A stretch of 35,965 bases of DNA from assembly GCA_028691315.1 (NCBI GenBank), contig JAQUZN010000011.1, positions 1-35,965 of the forward strand. Direction: 5' to 3'. A model generated the notes under the pieces. It saw only the letters and a program-made list of their open reading frames with translations, made no database searches and had not been told where the DNA came from. This DNA is from Candidatus Izemoplasmatales bacterium. GTDB taxonomy: Bacteria > Bacillota_I > Bacilli_A > Izemoplasmatales > Hujiaoplasmataceae. Positions 3,805-25,897 of this stretch are shown here, piece by piece. Positions within the stretch are counted from its first letter, which is position 1. Every line of letters begins with the position of its first letter. The translations under genes were made by a program, and so were the position numbers.

Positions 3805-6690
3805 TTAGAAAGATTCAATCGGTGGAAAAAAAGATCCTTTAACATAATTTATGTGGTATTCTGCAAGTTCTGATTTTTTAATTGTATTGTCATAATGACA
3901 ATACACAATTTTTGAAAAGTTTAGTTTTAATGAATCAAGGAAATCTATATCAATTTGATCAATATAAACGTATTCAATGTGCTTAAACTCATGAAGTATA
4001 GATATTGGAAGATTTTCCATGTTCATTAAACCGAAACTGACGCTATATTCTTCATATCTCTTAATTTGTTCAAATGTTTCACTTACATAAATTGGGTCAA
4101 CAGTAATAATAAAAATAATATTTTGTAAGTCAATCACAGATTTTTTAATCCTTTTAATTATGTCTTCCATAAATGAGTTATTTAAAAAAGACGATAGATG
4201 AACTTCTATTGCAAAACGGACACTATGAATAATTTCTTTGCTCCAACTTTTAGATTGTTTTATAAATGATTTGAGAACAAGCTTGTCAAATAAATTTGCC
4301 ATGCCTTCATAAATAATCGTTTTTTCAAACAAATCATTTTCACCGAGCAATAAACTTTTATGTAATTCGATATGATAGTAGTTCACTTTTTTGTTTTCCC
4401 AATTTCCAACTGGATGATATTCTAATAAAACTTCATCGCTACGAATCATTTGATTCAAATTATAAGCAATTGTATTCATTAAATGGTGATTCGTTGTCAT
4501 TTTACGGTCATAAAAAATGATGCCATCTGTTTTACATTGTTCATAAAAATTAGCATTAATCATCGATAAAATCTCGATAAAAGGATGTTTTTTCTGTACT
4601 TGAACAGCTAATCCTTTTAATTTTAGGTAAGTATCGACAAAAGCTAATTGATTTAACTCTTTTTGGAATTCTAAAAATATACGAGAAACTACTCTTTTAT
4701 CAATTGTTTTAATAAACAAAATCCACCCTGAATCATTTGAAGAAAAAATACCGATAAAGTAATCTTTGGCAATTTTGGTAAATATACTATCGAAACTTGA
4801 TTCTAGTTTATTCTTAAATGAATAAGACATATTTTGTAATTTATCTTCCAGTGACTCTGGCACAAAATATATTAAAGTTGTCGATTGATGGAATTCTTCA
4901 AATTTTTGTTTGAGGGCATTTATAGACAGTAAAGGACTATTTATCTGATGCATTAACGAATTTTCGTTCTCATTTTTAGATATAATTTCATTCGTTATTT
5001 CTTCTATAAATAAATACAAGTGCAAATCAATTTTTTTTGAGATAAACCTTATCCATTTGTTCCTATTGTTGCTTAATTCATACTCAACAACAACTTCTTT
5101 AGTGAGCAAAAAATCATCTAAATATAGTTTTTTATTCGTAAAATGAGTTTGAACTGTTTCAAAAGGAACATAGGTAGAATCAATTTCTAGAATTGATTTT
5201 GAGATGTCATCAATATAAGTAATATATCCCTTTTCAATTTTTATAAGGCCTATTTGCTTGTAATTTTCCAAGTGCTCGTGAACTCGCCATATCTCTGACT
5301 CGATTTTGCTTGATTCAAATACTTTTAGTTTTTCTTCCGTAAGTCTAGCCATCATCAATAATAATTTATGTATATAATCATAATGAGTAAGCTTATCTAT
5401 AGATAGCAAAATATGAAAATCTCCATAAAATTGACTAATTAATTTTACACCCAAAACCATTTCACTTGTTCCCTTTGTAACTTCTGGAATCGTTTTTAAT
5501 AGGGCAAGCTCATCTTTTGAAAAAACTTGGAATGTTATAAGTGAAGAAAATAATTTTGAGTATATTGAGTTTGCTGCATAATCTTTATCTATTTCCTTTT
5601 CAATAAGTAATTCTTTGCTATAGGTAAAGAGATGATATCCTTCATCATACAACGTTACAAATTGAAATGAACTAGGCGATATAACTTCATGGAGAATTCT
5701 TGATGAATATAACAAAATATCTCTTGGCGTTTTAGGTGAAGGCATTTGATTAAAACGTGTTGTTAATTGGTAAATTCCATCAAATTGATCAAATATTTCT
5801 GAGTTAATTTGGCTATACAAATTAATCTTGTCTTTTATTTGAGCGTATTCTTGGTGTTTACCCATCTTTTGCATTAATTCACTAGCAGCTTCATAAAACT
5901 GTACTTGGTAATTCTTTGATAAAGAATGTTGCATTTTCGGTTCGTAATCTTGGAAAAATTGGTAACCATCATTATACATTTCAAGTTTAGTACAAAGTAA
6001 TAAATAGCGATCTAAGTATCGGTTCTTTACTTTAGACTTAACAAAGTACTCTTGATATTTGTCTAAAGACAACTGATATTCTTGTCTGGCATAAAGTAAA
6101 TCAGACTCAACTAGAGCAAATAGCGAATTTTTTTGAGTTCTGTCATATACTTTTGCCCGCTCAAAAGCATTAAATGCTTGATTTGTATTTTTTTCTTTTA
6201 AATATAACATTGAAAGTTTCAAATATTTACTGATAATGTTGTTTGAACTCATCGTATCTGGGATACTCTCAAGAACGGTAATCGCTTCTGTATTTCTTTT
6301 TAATCCTTCTAAACTTACAGCTAAATAGAAGTTTTGCATCATCATTTGATGATTATTGCCAGTTATATATCTTTCTCTTACTTTTAATATCGATTCAAGT
6401 TCAGTAAAGTTTTCAGTTTTCAAATAGAAACTAATTAGTTTATCAACAAAATTTAAAATTACTTGGTAGTCTTCTGTATATTCTTGACTTAATGCAGATT
6501 TAATTGTAAAAATTGCATTTTCAAAATCTTGAATATTTTGATATATATCAGCAATAAGATTGGTTACATCAAAATAAACCGTAAAGTCCCCTTCAATTAC
6601 GGCTTGATTTTGCAATTCAATACATTTTTCAACTAGTTCTTCGTTTTTTGGTTCTTCAAGATATTCTAAATATAATTCTTTGCAACTCAT
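3805..6690 (-). CDS. TPR, GAF-like, PAS-like protein with degenerate GGDEF and EAL domains
   Basis: This is a 961-residue soluble protein. Residues 1-300 are helical TPR-like repeats, about 310-460 look GAF-like and 465-570 PAS-like. A GGDEF-fold segment spans about 575-690: the start resembles the DxLTGLxNR helix, but the active loop reads SSNDSG (650-655) instead of GGDEF. An EAL-fold segment spans about 745-961. LEYHP (756-760) and YVKGSFF (949-955) align with LxYQP and YxQGYxF, but EAL is replaced by HIEL (773-776), the VNLS Asn by His831, and the DDFG loop by FGLMN. Neither c-di-GMP synthesis nor hydrolysis looks possible, so a sensor or scaffold role is inferred. It starts four bases after the YfcE gene stop with an AAGGTGAT site, so it is last in the rdgB operon. 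Domain calls are by eye from conserved patterns. Confidence 0.7.
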   Translation of the reverse strand: MSCKELYLEYLEEPKNEELVEKCIELQNQAVIEGDFTVYFDVTNLIADIYQNIQDFENAIFTIKSALSQEYTEDYQVILNFVDKLISFYLKTENFTELESILKVRERYITGNNHQMMMQNFYLAVSLEGLKRNTEAITVLESIPDTMSSNNIISKYLKLSMLYLKEKNTNQAFNAFERAKVYDRTQKNSLFALVESDLLYARQEYQLSLDKYQEYFVKSKVKNRYLDRYLLLCTKLEMYNDGYQFFQDYEPKMQHSLSKNYQVQFYEAASELMQKMGKHQEYAQIKDKINLYSQINSEIFDQFDGIYQLTTRFNQMPSPKTPRDILLYSSRILHEVISPSSFQFVTLYDEGYHLFTYSKELLIEKEIDKDYAANSIYSKLFSSLITFQVFSKDELALLKTIPEVTKGTSEMVLGVKLISQFYGDFHILLSIDKLTHYDYIHKLLLMMARLTEEKLKVFESSKIESEIWRVHEHLENYKQIGLIKIEKGYITYIDDISKSILEIDSTYVPFETVQTHFTNKKLYLDDFLLTKEVVVEYELSNNRNKWIRFISKKIDLHLYLFIEEITNEIISKNENENSLMHQINSPLLSINALKQKFEEFHQSTTLIYFVPESLEDKLQNMSYSFKNKLESSFDSIFTKIAKDYFIGIFSSNDSGWILFIKTIDKRVVSRIFLEFQKELNQLAFVDTYLKLKGLAVQVQKKHPFIEILSMINANFYEQCKTDGIIFYDRKMTTNHHLMNTIAYNLNQMIRSDEVLLEYHPVGNWENKKVNYYHIELHKSLLLGENDLFEKTIIYEGMANLFDKLVLKSFIKQSKSWSKEIIHSVRFAIEVHLSSFLNNSFMEDIIKRIKKSVIDLQNIIFIITVDPIYVSETFEQIKRYEEYSVSFGLMNMENLPISILHEFKHIEYVYIDQIDIDFLDSLKLNFSKIVYCHYDNTIKKSELAEYHINYVKGSFFPPIESF

Positions 6691-21449: not shown

Positions 21450-24044
21450 TTATTTAAGTTTTATCTTCTTTACTTCTTCTAGGACATCTGCAAGTAAATT
21501 AATCGCTTGTAATGGCGTTATATCTTGAATATTAATGGCGTCAAGTTGGTCAATTACAGATTGATAGCAAGATTCAATTTCTAGTTCTTTTTCCGTCGCA
21601 TTCTCATAATTAAACAAGTCAATTGTTTGAGGTTTAATTATGTTATACCCATGATTCTTCTCAAGTTCTAATAGAATTGATTTTGCTCTACGAATTAATG
21701 CTTTAGGAAGGTGTGCAAGTTCAGCAACATGGATGCCATAAGATTTATCAGTTGGTCCATCAATCACTTTATGCATAAAGACGATACTACCTTTTTCTTC
21801 TTTTGCCAATACGTGAACATTATGCAAAGATTTTAAATCATCTTCTAAATAGGTTAACTCATGATAATGAGTAGAAAATAAAATTTTACACTTAATTGCT
21901 TGATGTGCATATTCAATGATGGCTTGGGCCAAGGCCATTCCATCATAAGTTGCCGTCCCTCTACCAATTTCATCAAAAAGTATAAGACTTTTTTCAGTGG
22001 CATTTTGAAGAGCATAATGTACTTCAATCATTTCCACCATAAATGTCGATTTTCCACCAGTTAAATCATCACTTGCGCCAATTCTAGTAAATATTTGATC
22101 GAAGATTGGTAGTGAAGCGTATTCACATGGAACAAAACAACCTATTTGCATTAGAATGACAGTTAATGCTAATTGTCTCATATATGTGGATTTTCCTGAC
22201 ATATTTGGGCCCGTAATGAGTAAAATATTGGTTTGTTCATCCATGTTTATATTGTTTTCAACATATGGTTCATTTTCTAGCAAGACTTCAACGACAGGAT
22301 GTCTTCCATTGACAATTGTAATTTGACGATTTTCAATAATTTCAGGTTTCATATAACGTCTTTGCATTGAAATTTTTGAAAATGCGTATAACATATCAAT
22401 TTCAGAAATCGCTTTGGCAAGGGTTTGTAAAGGTGTAATCTCTTTATTGGCTATATCACGAATCTCAAGAAACAATTGATATTCCATTTGAACGGACTCT
22501 TCTAAAGACCCAATAATTTGAGATTCTTTTATTTTCAGTTCTGGAGTCACATATCTTTCAGAGTTTGATAAGGTCTGTTTACGCTCATAACCAAACTCGT
22601 CTTTGACTAAATCAGTTTGACCTTTCGATACTTCAATGTAGTAACCAAAAACACGGTTATAACCTATTTTTAGTTTGCGTATGCCAGTACGTTCACGTTC
22701 AGATGCTTCAAACGCTTCAAGCCATGTTTTACCCGACGAACTTTGGTCTTTAATGTTATCTAATAAAGTTGAGTATCCCGCTTTGATAAAACCACCATCT
22801 GTGATTGATAGTGGAGGATTATCGACAATTGCACTTAAAATCGTTGTTTTAAGGTTCGTAAAATCATCGATCTTACTTAAAAAATCAAGAGCATACTCAT
22901 TATCTAAACTTATAAGAATGCTCTTGATATCTGGAATAACTTGTAGTGATCTTGCAAGATTCATCATATCTTTCGCATTGGCATTTCCAAATGAGATTCT
23001 TCCAATTATTCTTTCTAGGTCATAAACAACTTTTAACAACGTTCTTAATTCCTCTTGTAAAATAAAATGGTCGTTTAAACTTTCGACAAAAGAAAACCGT
23101 TTTAATATATGAGTTTTATCAACTAAGGGACGTAAGATGTTCTGTTTTAAAAAACGAGATCCCATTGCAGTTTCACAAACATCTAACAGCCAAAATAAAG
23201 TGCCTTTTCGGTTTGATTGACGAAGTGTTTCTGTTAGTTCTAAATTCCTTTTGGAATTATTATCAATCCGCAGATAAGAAGTAGATTCAAATACTTGTAC
23301 TTTTTGCAGATGAAGAAGTTCTCTTTTTTGAGTAGTTAACAAATAACTAATAAGTCGTCCGAATGCTTTTATATATTCTTTATCATAAATATCTAAAATT
23401 AGATTTCGGTAAAAATTAGGCAAATTCGTATCATCATGAATAGATATTGTAAGTTCATACATATCTAAATACGGTTTGATCTTCAATTGATGAAAATCCG
23501 AACCAATGACGATTTCTCGAGCATTTAAATTTAAAATCTCACTAAACAATAATTCTTCTTCCTTTGGCAAAGAAATAATATAGTTTTGTCCAGTAGACAA
23601 ATCTGAATATGCTAATAAATAATGCTCTTTGGATTCAGTAATGGATACAATAAAATTATTCGATTTTTCATCAATTGTACCATCCTCCATCAAAGTACCT
23701 GGAGTAATGATTTTGATTACTTCTCGTTTCACAATGCTTTTTGCCAATTTTGGATCTTCAACTTGTTCGACAATCGCTACTTTAAACCCTTTGTCGATCA
23801 GTTTTTCTATGTAGATATTTGCCGCATGGTAAGGAACTCCACACATTGGAACTTTTTCATCAACACCAGCATCCCGTCCTGTAAGAACAATTTCAAGTTC
23901 TTTTGAAGCAACAAGGGCATCAGTAAAGAACATTTCATAGAAGTCTCCTAAGCGAAAAAAGACTATAAAATCCATATAGTCTTTTTTAATATCTAGATAT
24001 TGTTGCATCATTGGTGTATAAATCGATGAATCAATGTTTTTCAA
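21450..24044 (-). CDS. mutS: DNA mismatch repair protein MutS
   Basis: This protein recognises mispairs and small loops. The mismatch-reading Phe-Tyr-Glu (35-37) sits in FRLGDFYEMF. The ATPase has Walker A GPNMSGKST at 612-620, Walker B DE at 691-692 in FDEIGRGT, and the signature STFMVEM loop. The C-terminal helix-turn-helix and a clamp-binding tail follow. The start is set at TTG 24044 because AGGTGAT lies four bases upstream; the GTG at 24053 is part of that ribosome site. The resulting 864 residues, with YTPMMQQYL near the N-terminus, match Bacillus MutS. Confidence 0.95.
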   Translation of the reverse strand: MKNIDSSIYTPMMQQYLDIKKDYMDFIVFFRLGDFYEMFFTDALVASKELEIVLTGRDAGVDEKVPMCGVPYHAANIYIEKLIDKGFKVAIVEQVEDPKLAKSIVKREVIKIITPGTLMEDGTIDEKSNNFIVSITESKEHYLLAYSDLSTGQNYIISLPKEEELLFSEILNLNAREIVIGSDFHQLKIKPYLDMYELTISIHDDTNLPNFYRNLILDIYDKEYIKAFGRLISYLLTTQKRELLHLQKVQVFESTSYLRIDNNSKRNLELTETLRQSNRKGTLFWLLDVCETAMGSRFLKQNILRPLVDKTHILKRFSFVESLNDHFILQEELRTLLKVVYDLERIIGRISFGNANAKDMMNLARSLQVIPDIKSILISLDNEYALDFLSKIDDFTNLKTTILSAIVDNPPLSITDGGFIKAGYSTLLDNIKDQSSSGKTWLEAFEASERERTGIRKLKIGYNRVFGYYIEVSKGQTDLVKDEFGYERKQTLSNSERYVTPELKIKESQIIGSLEESVQMEYQLFLEIRDIANKEITPLQTLAKAISEIDMLYAFSKISMQRRYMKPEIIENRQITIVNGRHPVVEVLLENEPYVENNINMDEQTNILLITGPNMSGKSTYMRQLALTVILMQIGCFVPCEYASLPIFDQIFTRIGASDDLTGGKSTFMVEMIEVHYALQNATEKSLILFDEIGRGTATYDGMALAQAIIEYAHQAIKCKILFSTHYHELTYLEDDLKSLHNVHVLAKEEKGSIVFMHKVIDGPTDKSYGIHVAELAHLPKALIRRAKSILLELEKNHGYNIIKPQTIDLFNYENATEKELEIESCYQSVIDQLDAINIQDITPLQAINLLADVLEEVKKIKLK

Positions 24045-24072
24045 AACAATCACCTAAATCTTTGTAAAGTTT

Positions 24073-25380
24073 CTACCAGAATACTGGAATTCCAAAAGGT
24101 AATGAGTTGGGGTTATAGATTGTATAGTATAAGTATGAGTAACCTACAAATCCGATTATTGCAATAATTAATAACACAATGACGAATGTCCAAAATCTTT
24201 TTGCACGACGACGTTTATGATATTTTTTAATTATTTGATTGATTTTTTCATCTAGCAACTCTTTTTCCTCTAATGAAAAATCAATATCATCAGACTTCTG
24301 ACCATCAAGTTTCTTTTCGGTTTTTGGCTCTGATTTAGAATCTTGTTTAACTTCGTCTTTCTTTTCTTCTAGCGCAACTTTATTCTTTTCAACAATTGGA
24401 AGTGGTAATGGGGTCTCAATTTCTTGAGGAGTTGATTTTAATAGTTCTTTTGTTGAAACTGGTGGAACTACCATCTCCACATTATTTTCATCGATTACTT
24501 CAGTCACCGGAATATCTTGATCATTCGTAATAAACTCAATCGTATCTACTTTTACCGAATCCACATCAGTTGCTAGAGGGATGTCATAACTATGGTTATC
24601 TGTGACTATCTCTTGATGATACATTTTCAAATCATAAATGATAAATTCAACCATATCACTCTTTTTTAAATCAATTGAAATGCTAAATCCCTTTTCTTTT
24701 GCATAAATTTCTAACTCAAGAACGGATTTTTCATTTAGCAAATCAGCTTCGTCTTTGGATAAGCGAAATCTTGAAACAAGAATTTCAACCAATCTACCCT
24801 TGTTAATTCTTCGAGGAACAACGACATTATACTTTTCACCTAAACCTTTTAGATCACCAAGAGTGCATGAATGAACTAACACATCTTTTAAGATTTTCAA
24901 ACTTACTCCATCAAGATATCCTGAAGATTCATATAAAATCTTATCAAATTTCTTTATAAAATCTTGGTATTGGATTTTTTCGAAGTCTACAGTATACTTA
25001 TATTTCAATTTTTCTAAATCATCGAAAAAATTACTTTTGAGATTATAAATATCCTTGTTAATGAATAAAAAATTAAAAAAAATCTCTTTAAACTTCGCCG
25101 TATCAAACTCGATTTTAAAGTCTGAAATCAACTTTTCTAATAGATAAATAGAATAGTCATTATAGCCTCTTAAACGATATTTAAGCTCATCAGAATAAGT
25201 ATCATACAATTTTGTTTGAAAGACTTTTGAATAAATAGTTTCTCGCAATATAAAACGATATGCATAATATGGCATTTTGATTTCAAAATTAGTCAGTAAC
25301 TGAATGATATCTTCAGTAGTAACTACAGATAATGTTTTTGAGTAAGCAAAATATTCGTCATTTGTTTTAAATTTACTCAT
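24073..25380 (-). CDS. Unrecognised tail-anchored protein with two SAP/Rho-N-like repeats
   Basis: I do not recognise a named family. The 435-residue protein has a helical N-terminal region (1-155) rich in Tyr, Phe and Lys. Two repeats of similar pattern follow at about 172-206 and 218-252. The second (SVLELEIYAKEKGF...LKKSDMVEFI) has the helix, GF/GI turn, Lys, helix layout of SAP, HeH or Rho-N nucleic-acid-binding modules. Then come an acidic Glu/Pro/Lys linker (255-365), a coiled stretch, a basic patch (KKYHKRRRAKR, 385-395) and one transmembrane helix (396-416) with a 19-residue tail. By positive-inside logic the bulk is cytosolic. It has its own candidate promoter and stops 28 bases before mutS. 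A membrane tether for DNA or RNA is inferred only. Confidence 0.6.
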   Translation of the reverse strand: MSKFKTNDEYFAYSKTLSVVTTEDIIQLLTNFEIKMPYYAYRFILRETIYSKVFQTKLYDTYSDELKYRLRGYNDYSIYLLEKLISDFKIEFDTAKFKEIFFNFLFINKDIYNLKSNFFDDLEKLKYKYTVDFEKIQYQDFIKKFDKILYESSGYLDGVSLKILKDVLVHSCTLGDLKGLGEKYNVVVPRRINKGRLVEILVSRFRLSKDEADLLNEKSVLELEIYAKEKGFSISIDLKKSDMVEFIIYDLKMYHQEIVTDNHSYDIPLATDVDSVKVDTIEFITNDQDIPVTEVIDENNVEMVVPPVSTKELLKSTPQEIETPLPLPIVEKNKVALEEKKDEVKQDSKSEPKTEKKLDGQKSDDIDFSLEEKELLDEKINQIIKKYHKRRRAKRFWTFVIVLLIIAIIGFVGYSYLYYTIYNPNSLPFGIPVFW

Positions 25381-25458: not shown

Positions 25459-25473
25459 AGCGATTTCCTCGCT
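25459..25473 (-). terminator. Short hairpin downstream of the ricA-like gene
   Basis: AGCGA/TCGCT with a 5-base loop, followed on the minus strand by AATTTTAT. It is weak. The rest of the 190-base gap (25381-25570) is AT-rich, and I see no gene in it. Confidence 0.3.
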
Positions 25474-25570: not shown

Positions 25571-25897
25571 TTATTCAAATAAATTCAATTGATCATTTAT
25601 AATTCCTTCAACTGAATGAATTAATTGGTTCAGTTCATCAAGCAAAGCTAAATATTGTTTTACTACAGGTTTTGATTTTAATTGTTCGAGTCGAAACAAA
25701 TATTCAAGTCTAAGTTTCGAAGACGTACTTACCTCATTCTTTACTTCTTCTTGAACTAATTTTTTTTGAAGCATTAAAATTTCCTTGTACTCCTCTAAAT
25801 AAACTGGATTTGAGGCAATTATATTTTTCGCTTCTAACAGTTCGATATATAAAGATGAATTTGTTATTTCAGCAAGTATCTCCTGTAAATTATTCAT
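25571..25897 (-). CDS. YlbF/YmcA (RicA-like) family protein, short form
   Basis: This is a small all-helical protein of the Com_YlbF family, placed right after miaB as ymcA (ricA) is in B. subtilis. There RicA, RicF and RicT form the Y-complex that steers RNase Y cleavage and affects MiaB activity. Here rny, ymdB and miaB all lie upstream in the same direction. The 108 residues are shorter than B. subtilis RicA (about 143) and contain no cysteine, whereas the Bacillus complex binds iron-sulfur clusters through cysteines. AAGGAG precedes the ATG, which overlaps the miaB stop by eight bases. The YlbF paralogue is the alternative assignment. Confidence 0.75.
   Translation of the reverse strand: MNNLQEILAEITNSSLYIELLEAKNIIASNPVYLEEYKEILMLQKKLVQEEVKNEVSTSSKLRLEYLFRLEQLKSKPVVKQYLALLDELNQLIHSVEGIINDQLNLFE

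Follow-up and report, generated by a model that had tools for sequence, protein, structure and literature searches.

A gene that we call X lies directly before mutS in an Izemoplasmatales bacterium, with ricA and the gene of RNase Y on its other side, and its position raises the question of whether its product serves mismatch repair, RNase Y, or neither of them. A preliminary description of the window (the whole stretch of DNA that was analysed, 35,965 nucleotides) had assigned to the X protein two tandem SAP/Rho-N-like repeats, an acidic linker, a basic patch and a single C-terminal transmembrane (TM) helix, and had suggested that it could tether DNA or RNA to the membrane near repair or RNase Y complexes. 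Wall loss forms the background of the class to which the host belongs (PMC10868615, in the available part of that source).

Gene X and its neighbourhood

The reading frame reported at 24073-25380 exists and lies on the minus strand, which had been left unstated. X is a real gene: it is present in 31 of the 34 genomes of the host family, and an alignment of 24 host-family sequences, which have 40-65% identity to the window protein, contains 67 invariant columns. The three host-family genomes without X also lack a complete MutS1, and thus missing contigs may explain the absence. In the 24-member family alignment, a core of about 270 residues is conserved while the linker is variable. Across the homolog core alignment G158, P189, and K240 are invariant, and P37, R69, R191, K194, and E245 are nearly invariant. 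The features of X and of its surroundings are as follows.

24073..25380, minus strand: coding sequence of X, 435 amino acids, ATG start, from the reading frame and family conservation
25231..25317, minus strand: R1, residues 22-50, probable first helix-extended-helix module, from a profile match that 0 of 60 shuffles equalled
24763..24861, minus strand: R3, residues 174-206, Rho_N/SAP-like module with P189, R191, and K194 conserved
24625..24729, minus strand: R4, residues 218-252, second tandem Rho_N/SAP-like module with K240 invariant
24229..24570, minus strand: acidic proline-rich linker, residues 271-384, varying in length and sequence among homologs
24187..24228, minus strand: basic juxtamembrane stretch, residues 385-398, a positive-inside flank
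24127..24186, minus strand: single C-terminal TM helix, residues 399-418, from hydropathy and conserved in the family alignment
24076..24126, minus strand: short outside tail, residues 419-435, ending in LPFGIPVFW, which most family members keep
21450..24053, minus strand: mutS (MutS1), starting 19 bp after the stop codon of X
25571..25897, minus strand: ricA/ymcA (Com_YlbF), the upstream neighbour, from Pfam
25459..25473, minus strand: weak terminator-like hairpin in the gap between ricA and X

X indeed lies directly upstream of mutS, and the gene order rny-ymdB-miaB-ricA-X-mutS-mutL-miaA was recovered with NCBIfam models, and with Pfam for ricA. Thus mutS, mutL, and miaA flank X on one side, and ricA, miaB, the gene of a YmdB-type phosphoesterase, and those of RNase Y and RecA are on the other. 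The gap between ricA and X is 190 bp. The hairpin in it (two sites versus 0.3 in shuffles, the two being one palindrome that is detected on each strand) is a hint of a separate transcription unit that begins with X. An Rfam search of the window matched no family. In Bacillus subtilis the corresponding position is presumably that of cotE; homology of X to CotE was rejected, as X has no Pfam match of any kind.

Repeated modules and the membrane anchor

The two tandem repeats were recovered by profile-profile comparison. Residues 164-208 match residues 212-256 with a P of 1.7e-5, and none of 60 column-shuffled controls scored as high. Residues 14-52 match both of these repeats (P 5.8e-5 and 0.0023, 0 of 60 shuffles in each case), suggesting that a third module, absent from the preliminary description, is probably present near the N-terminus. 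For this module (R1) there was one HeH match among 28 members and no Pfam support in the window sequence, and sequence-profile searches with R1 alone returned noise. The profile comparison gave no support for a further module at residues 72-112, which was rejected, and residues 112-160 gave no convincing match to other parts of the protein.

The SAP/Rho-N pattern was found in the homologs, as Pfam Rho_N (PF07498), but not in the window protein alone, which stayed below the curated Pfam cut-off for Rho_N, matched no Pfam family at E <= 10 and had no meaningful match in NCBIfam. In the HMM search that the preliminary description had proposed, Rho_N scored above the Pfam cut-off (24.9 bits) in four of ten distant homologs, on two stretches each, and the homolog L085 fell just under it with 24.5 bits. 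Rho_N was matched at E <= 0.1 in 23 of the 28 core sequences that span the class (set A3), and at E <= 1 in 11 of the 24 host-family members, with 0.021 as the best value. The SAP model PF02037 was absent for the window protein and its homologs among the matches listed (25 of 37 families for the 24 family members), and HeH matches in Pfam were weak and came from a few homologs only. Pfam matched neither the RNA-binding domain nor the ATPase domain of Rho in X or its homologs. NCBIfam models of Rho gave weak matches to the core in 3-4 of the 28 core sequences. Furthermore, one core of A3 weakly matches the NCBIfam model '50S ribosomal protein L20/unknown domain fusion' (E 0.0024).

A model of the 107-residue tandem, built from a two-sequence alignment (pLDDT 71, pTM 0.60), has helices at 20-29 and 40-50 and again at 66-75 and 86-106 with a strand residue between, i.e., helix-extended-helix twice. 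Foldseek and VIA-align found no significant match for this model, and SAP and Rho chains were absent among the matches listed; the helix-extended-helix fold of X is thus tentative. A 272-residue model of the core, also from two sequences, was unusable (pLDDT 39.8). In a PDB sequence-profile search the top match was 1jjr (thyroid autoantigen, E 0.048), which we take to be the SAP structure of Ku70, and Rho was matched at E 0.25, both below significance.

The acidic linker and the single C-terminal TM helix were both found where the preliminary description had seen them. By hydropathy, the TM helix is present in 62 of 65 homolog rows (one gene is counted twice among the 65, and four rows that were open, fragments, or duplicates were excluded), and more basic residues precede it than follow it. 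The 'basic patch' is present as KKYHKRRRAKRF and is the usual positive-inside flank directly before the TM helix. X is predicted to be a tail-anchored protein with its N-terminus in the cytoplasm. L079, L083, and L087 have no TM helix by hydropathy, which counts against a tethering role. The core and the TM helix are separated by a linker with a median length of 118 residues and with 517 residues at most (61 rows). A 3-residue linker in L005 was rejected because it conflicts with the position of the TM helix in L005; the estimate of the core end is taken to be at fault. In L085 (protein at 4591-6462), two Listeria-Bacteroides repeats are inside the linker (E 3.8e-22). The Listeria-Bacteroides repeat domain is usually extracellular, and thus these repeats fit awkwardly with a cytoplasmic linker.

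The charge of the modules bears on whether they bind nucleic acid. The net charge of R4 is about zero or below in many homologs and is -3 in the window protein, which counts against any nucleic-acid role, and the middle region is acidic in many homologs. These features would suit a membrane scaffold whose modules have lost nucleic-acid binding and bind proteins instead, such as those of the division or secretion machinery, its position at mutS being historical gene order. Single lineages in which X is independent of mutS, of the Ric proteins, and of miaB would fit such a scaffold as well. However, conservation is highest at positions among which are the loop proline and the basic residues that start the second helix, and the Rho_N match recurs across families. 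We consider a scaffold without nucleic-acid binding unlikely.

X, MutS1, and the RNase Y specificity complex

X is conserved within a set of bacteria whose genomes are small. In the order, X was found in 76 of 90 genomes, and in 30 of the 33 high-quality ones. In the class sample 98 of 395 genomes match at E <= 1e-3. Eighty-seven of them are strong matches (E <= 1e-7), from families f1, f2, f3, f12, f16, f18, and f22, while the 11 weak ones (E 2.3e-5 to 1e-3) were excluded from the count, as almost all of them cover only the linker and the TM helix. With a deeper profile, X was detected in 55 of 392 genomes of a phylum sample, all from the same class or nearer; the out-of-class share of this sample is not given. 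Family f12 has X in 37 of 54 genomes, and the 17 without X all come from a single genus, in which genome size is 0.5-0.9 Mb. The relatives include L031, from a Bacilli metagenome assembly. The gene tree of X largely follows the families, with some dispersed extra copies. A viral or plasmid origin was rejected, as no relative was found among viral contigs or plasmids.

Second copies of the core, from the same order, were found at loci without mutS (L059, 2183-3619; L060, 4163-5602; L061, 3633-5039; L062, 4101-5288; L063, 551-1738). The dispersed copies in f1 are near a conserved gene that is ketopantoate reductase-like by eye. Two homologs from two families, L157 (75-1226) and L149 (4155-5993), have neighbours that are spxA/arsC-like and trpS-like by eye.

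A survey of miaB-mutS intervals, which the preliminary description had called for, found X conserved beside mutS in relatives. The gap between X and mutS has a median of 11 bp and is <= 60 bp in 52 of 54 rows (L003 and L031 are one locus), and this tight spacing argues for joint expression. Such a nearly invariant adjacency, together with the presence of MutS1 in 82 of the 87 strong class carriers of X, would fit a view of X as a membrane recruitment factor dedicated to mismatch repair by MutS/MutL. However, five of the 87 carriers have no MutS1, and in f3 X is present in all seven genomes while MutS1 was found in none of them. In the f3 loci that were read, X lies between miaB and miaA. At five of these loci (L053-L056 and L067) mutS and mutL were unmatched, and rny adjoins miaB where rny is in the stretch. 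Conversely, seven genomes (G052, G054-G057, G064, and G065) have ricA and mutS side by side, with the interval closed and X gone. MutS1 is present in 269 of the 395 class-sample genomes, and X is missing in 187 of these 269, a count based on A1 that is an upper bound because additional f22 carriers are detected with the A3 profile. A sliding-clamp-like pentapeptide occurs in 2 of 64 homologs and was rejected as a feature of X. The losses of X and of mutS argue against a fixed joint function. We rejected an obligate role in mismatch repair, given that f3 keeps X without MutS1 and seven genomes keep mutS without X, and a recruitment factor specific to MutS/MutL is very improbable.

The genes on the other side of X would fit a role with RNA. 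X might be an RNA-binding membrane adaptor for RNase Y that brings transcripts to this membrane-bound enzyme in the manner of plant RHON1, a Rho-N-type protein that reportedly supports RNase E and that, by a reference title, offers a precedent. The best Pfam match of X is Rho_N and not SAP, rny and ricA are in the gene cluster, RNase Y is present in all 36 X carriers tested, and f3 keeps the order rny-miaB-X-miaA after the loss of mutS. Since RNase Y is also present in 22 of 24 non-carriers, however, its co-occurrence with X says little. RicT was found in 34 of 36 X carriers versus 10 of 24 non-carriers, and a YlbF/YmcA-type protein in 28 of 36 versus 10 of 24 (the latter above the cut-off), but two carriers have no RicT and a YlbF/YmcA-type protein was undetected in eight. 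On these two counts, an obligate role in the RNase Y specificity (Ric) complex was rejected. Moreover, the seven closed-interval genomes that have lost X keep both RicA and RicT, and some X genes in f22 are beside mutS and away from rny: five loci have no match for miaB or rny in the stretch read, and in the three of their genomes that were checked rny is on other contigs. An RNase Y adaptor is therefore an explanation that we regard as rather unlikely.

X survives the loss of MutS1 and has disappeared from genomes that retain mutS and ricA, and thus X, although an operon partner, is an obligate part neither of mismatch repair nor of the RNase Y specificity complex. The proposal of a membrane tether near these complexes is supported as to the anatomy of the protein, but not as to an obligate link to either complex.

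A candidate membrane tether for nucleic acid

The explanation that we favour, tentatively and with somewhat less than even confidence, is that X may be a cytoplasm-facing, tail-anchored protein by which nucleic acid, and most likely the DNA of the chromosome, is held at the membrane. The Rho_N matches, the repeats in comparison with shuffles, the TM helix with its positive-inside charge, the fragment model, and the adjacency to mutS all fit such a tether. The tandem Rho_N/SAP-like modules would grip nucleic acid on the cytoplasmic side of the membrane, and R191, K194, and K239/K240, where the second helix of each module begins, may be the contacts. The ligand would be DNA rather than RNA because of the tight mutS-mutL coupling and because X stays with mutS where the miaB/rny block is elsewhere, but the arrangement in f3, with X near rny and without mutS, points the other way. 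Rho_N modules are an RNA lead as much as a DNA lead, and this counts against a DNA tether. The window protein has no Pfam match and the 107-residue model has no significant fold match, which also counts against tethering. Because X outlives MutS1, its role would be general attachment of the nucleoid to the membrane in wall-less cells and not a step of mismatch repair.

Several known proteins are similar to X in part. Rho_N is the N-terminal helix module of Rho and is also found in plant RHON1; X has this module type, as judged from the Pfam matches of its homologs, but it has no match to the RNA-binding or ATPase domains of Rho, and it has two to three modules in a row and a C-terminal membrane anchor. 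With SAP proteins such as the C-terminus of Ku70, X may share the helix-extended-helix topology that the fragment model has, and 1jjr was the top though non-significant match in the PDB profile search, whereas X differs in its membrane anchor and in the absence of PF02037 among the matches listed. The likeness to the Ric proteins (RicA, RicF, and RicT) is that ricA adjoins X and that RNase Y is itself membrane-bound, but X has no Pfam match in common with them and its presence is independent of theirs. In the available part of PMC10470536, RNase Y is membrane-bound and RicT needs RicA and RicF to bind it. The HeH/LEM proteins of the inner nuclear membrane (Src1/Heh1, Lem2, and MAN1) might work in a similar way, with an HeH-type module tethered to a membrane, and they have an HeH and MSC architecture (PMC6240307, in the part available). 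X differs from them in having no MSC match, a single C-terminal TM anchor, and weak HeH matches in few homologs, and on this evidence, which comes from sequence comparison, X and the HeH/LEM proteins do not appear to be homologous.

No description of the X protein was found in the literature searched, which was mostly outside subscription journals, and the main text of PMC10470597 has no mention of a SAP domain, Rho termination, mutS, or RNase Y. The module type is known, and for a tail-anchored tandem of such modules directly before mutS in wall-less Bacilli no description was found.

These results correct the reading of X by its position, since X lies directly before mutS and yet is not bound to mismatch repair. 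To our knowledge, how the chromosome is held and separated at the membrane in wall-less bacteria is poorly understood, and a conserved membrane-anchored SAP/Rho-N-like protein is a concrete candidate for chromosome attachment in such cells. It is distinctly unlikely, though conceivable, that tail-anchored tandem-HeH proteins, as a family not described before, provide the main tether between nucleoid and membrane in wall-less Bacilli (the sampled order and its relatives). If so, the HeH/LEM proteins of the inner nuclear membrane would have a convergent bacterial counterpart in X, with its gene at the head of the mutS operon.
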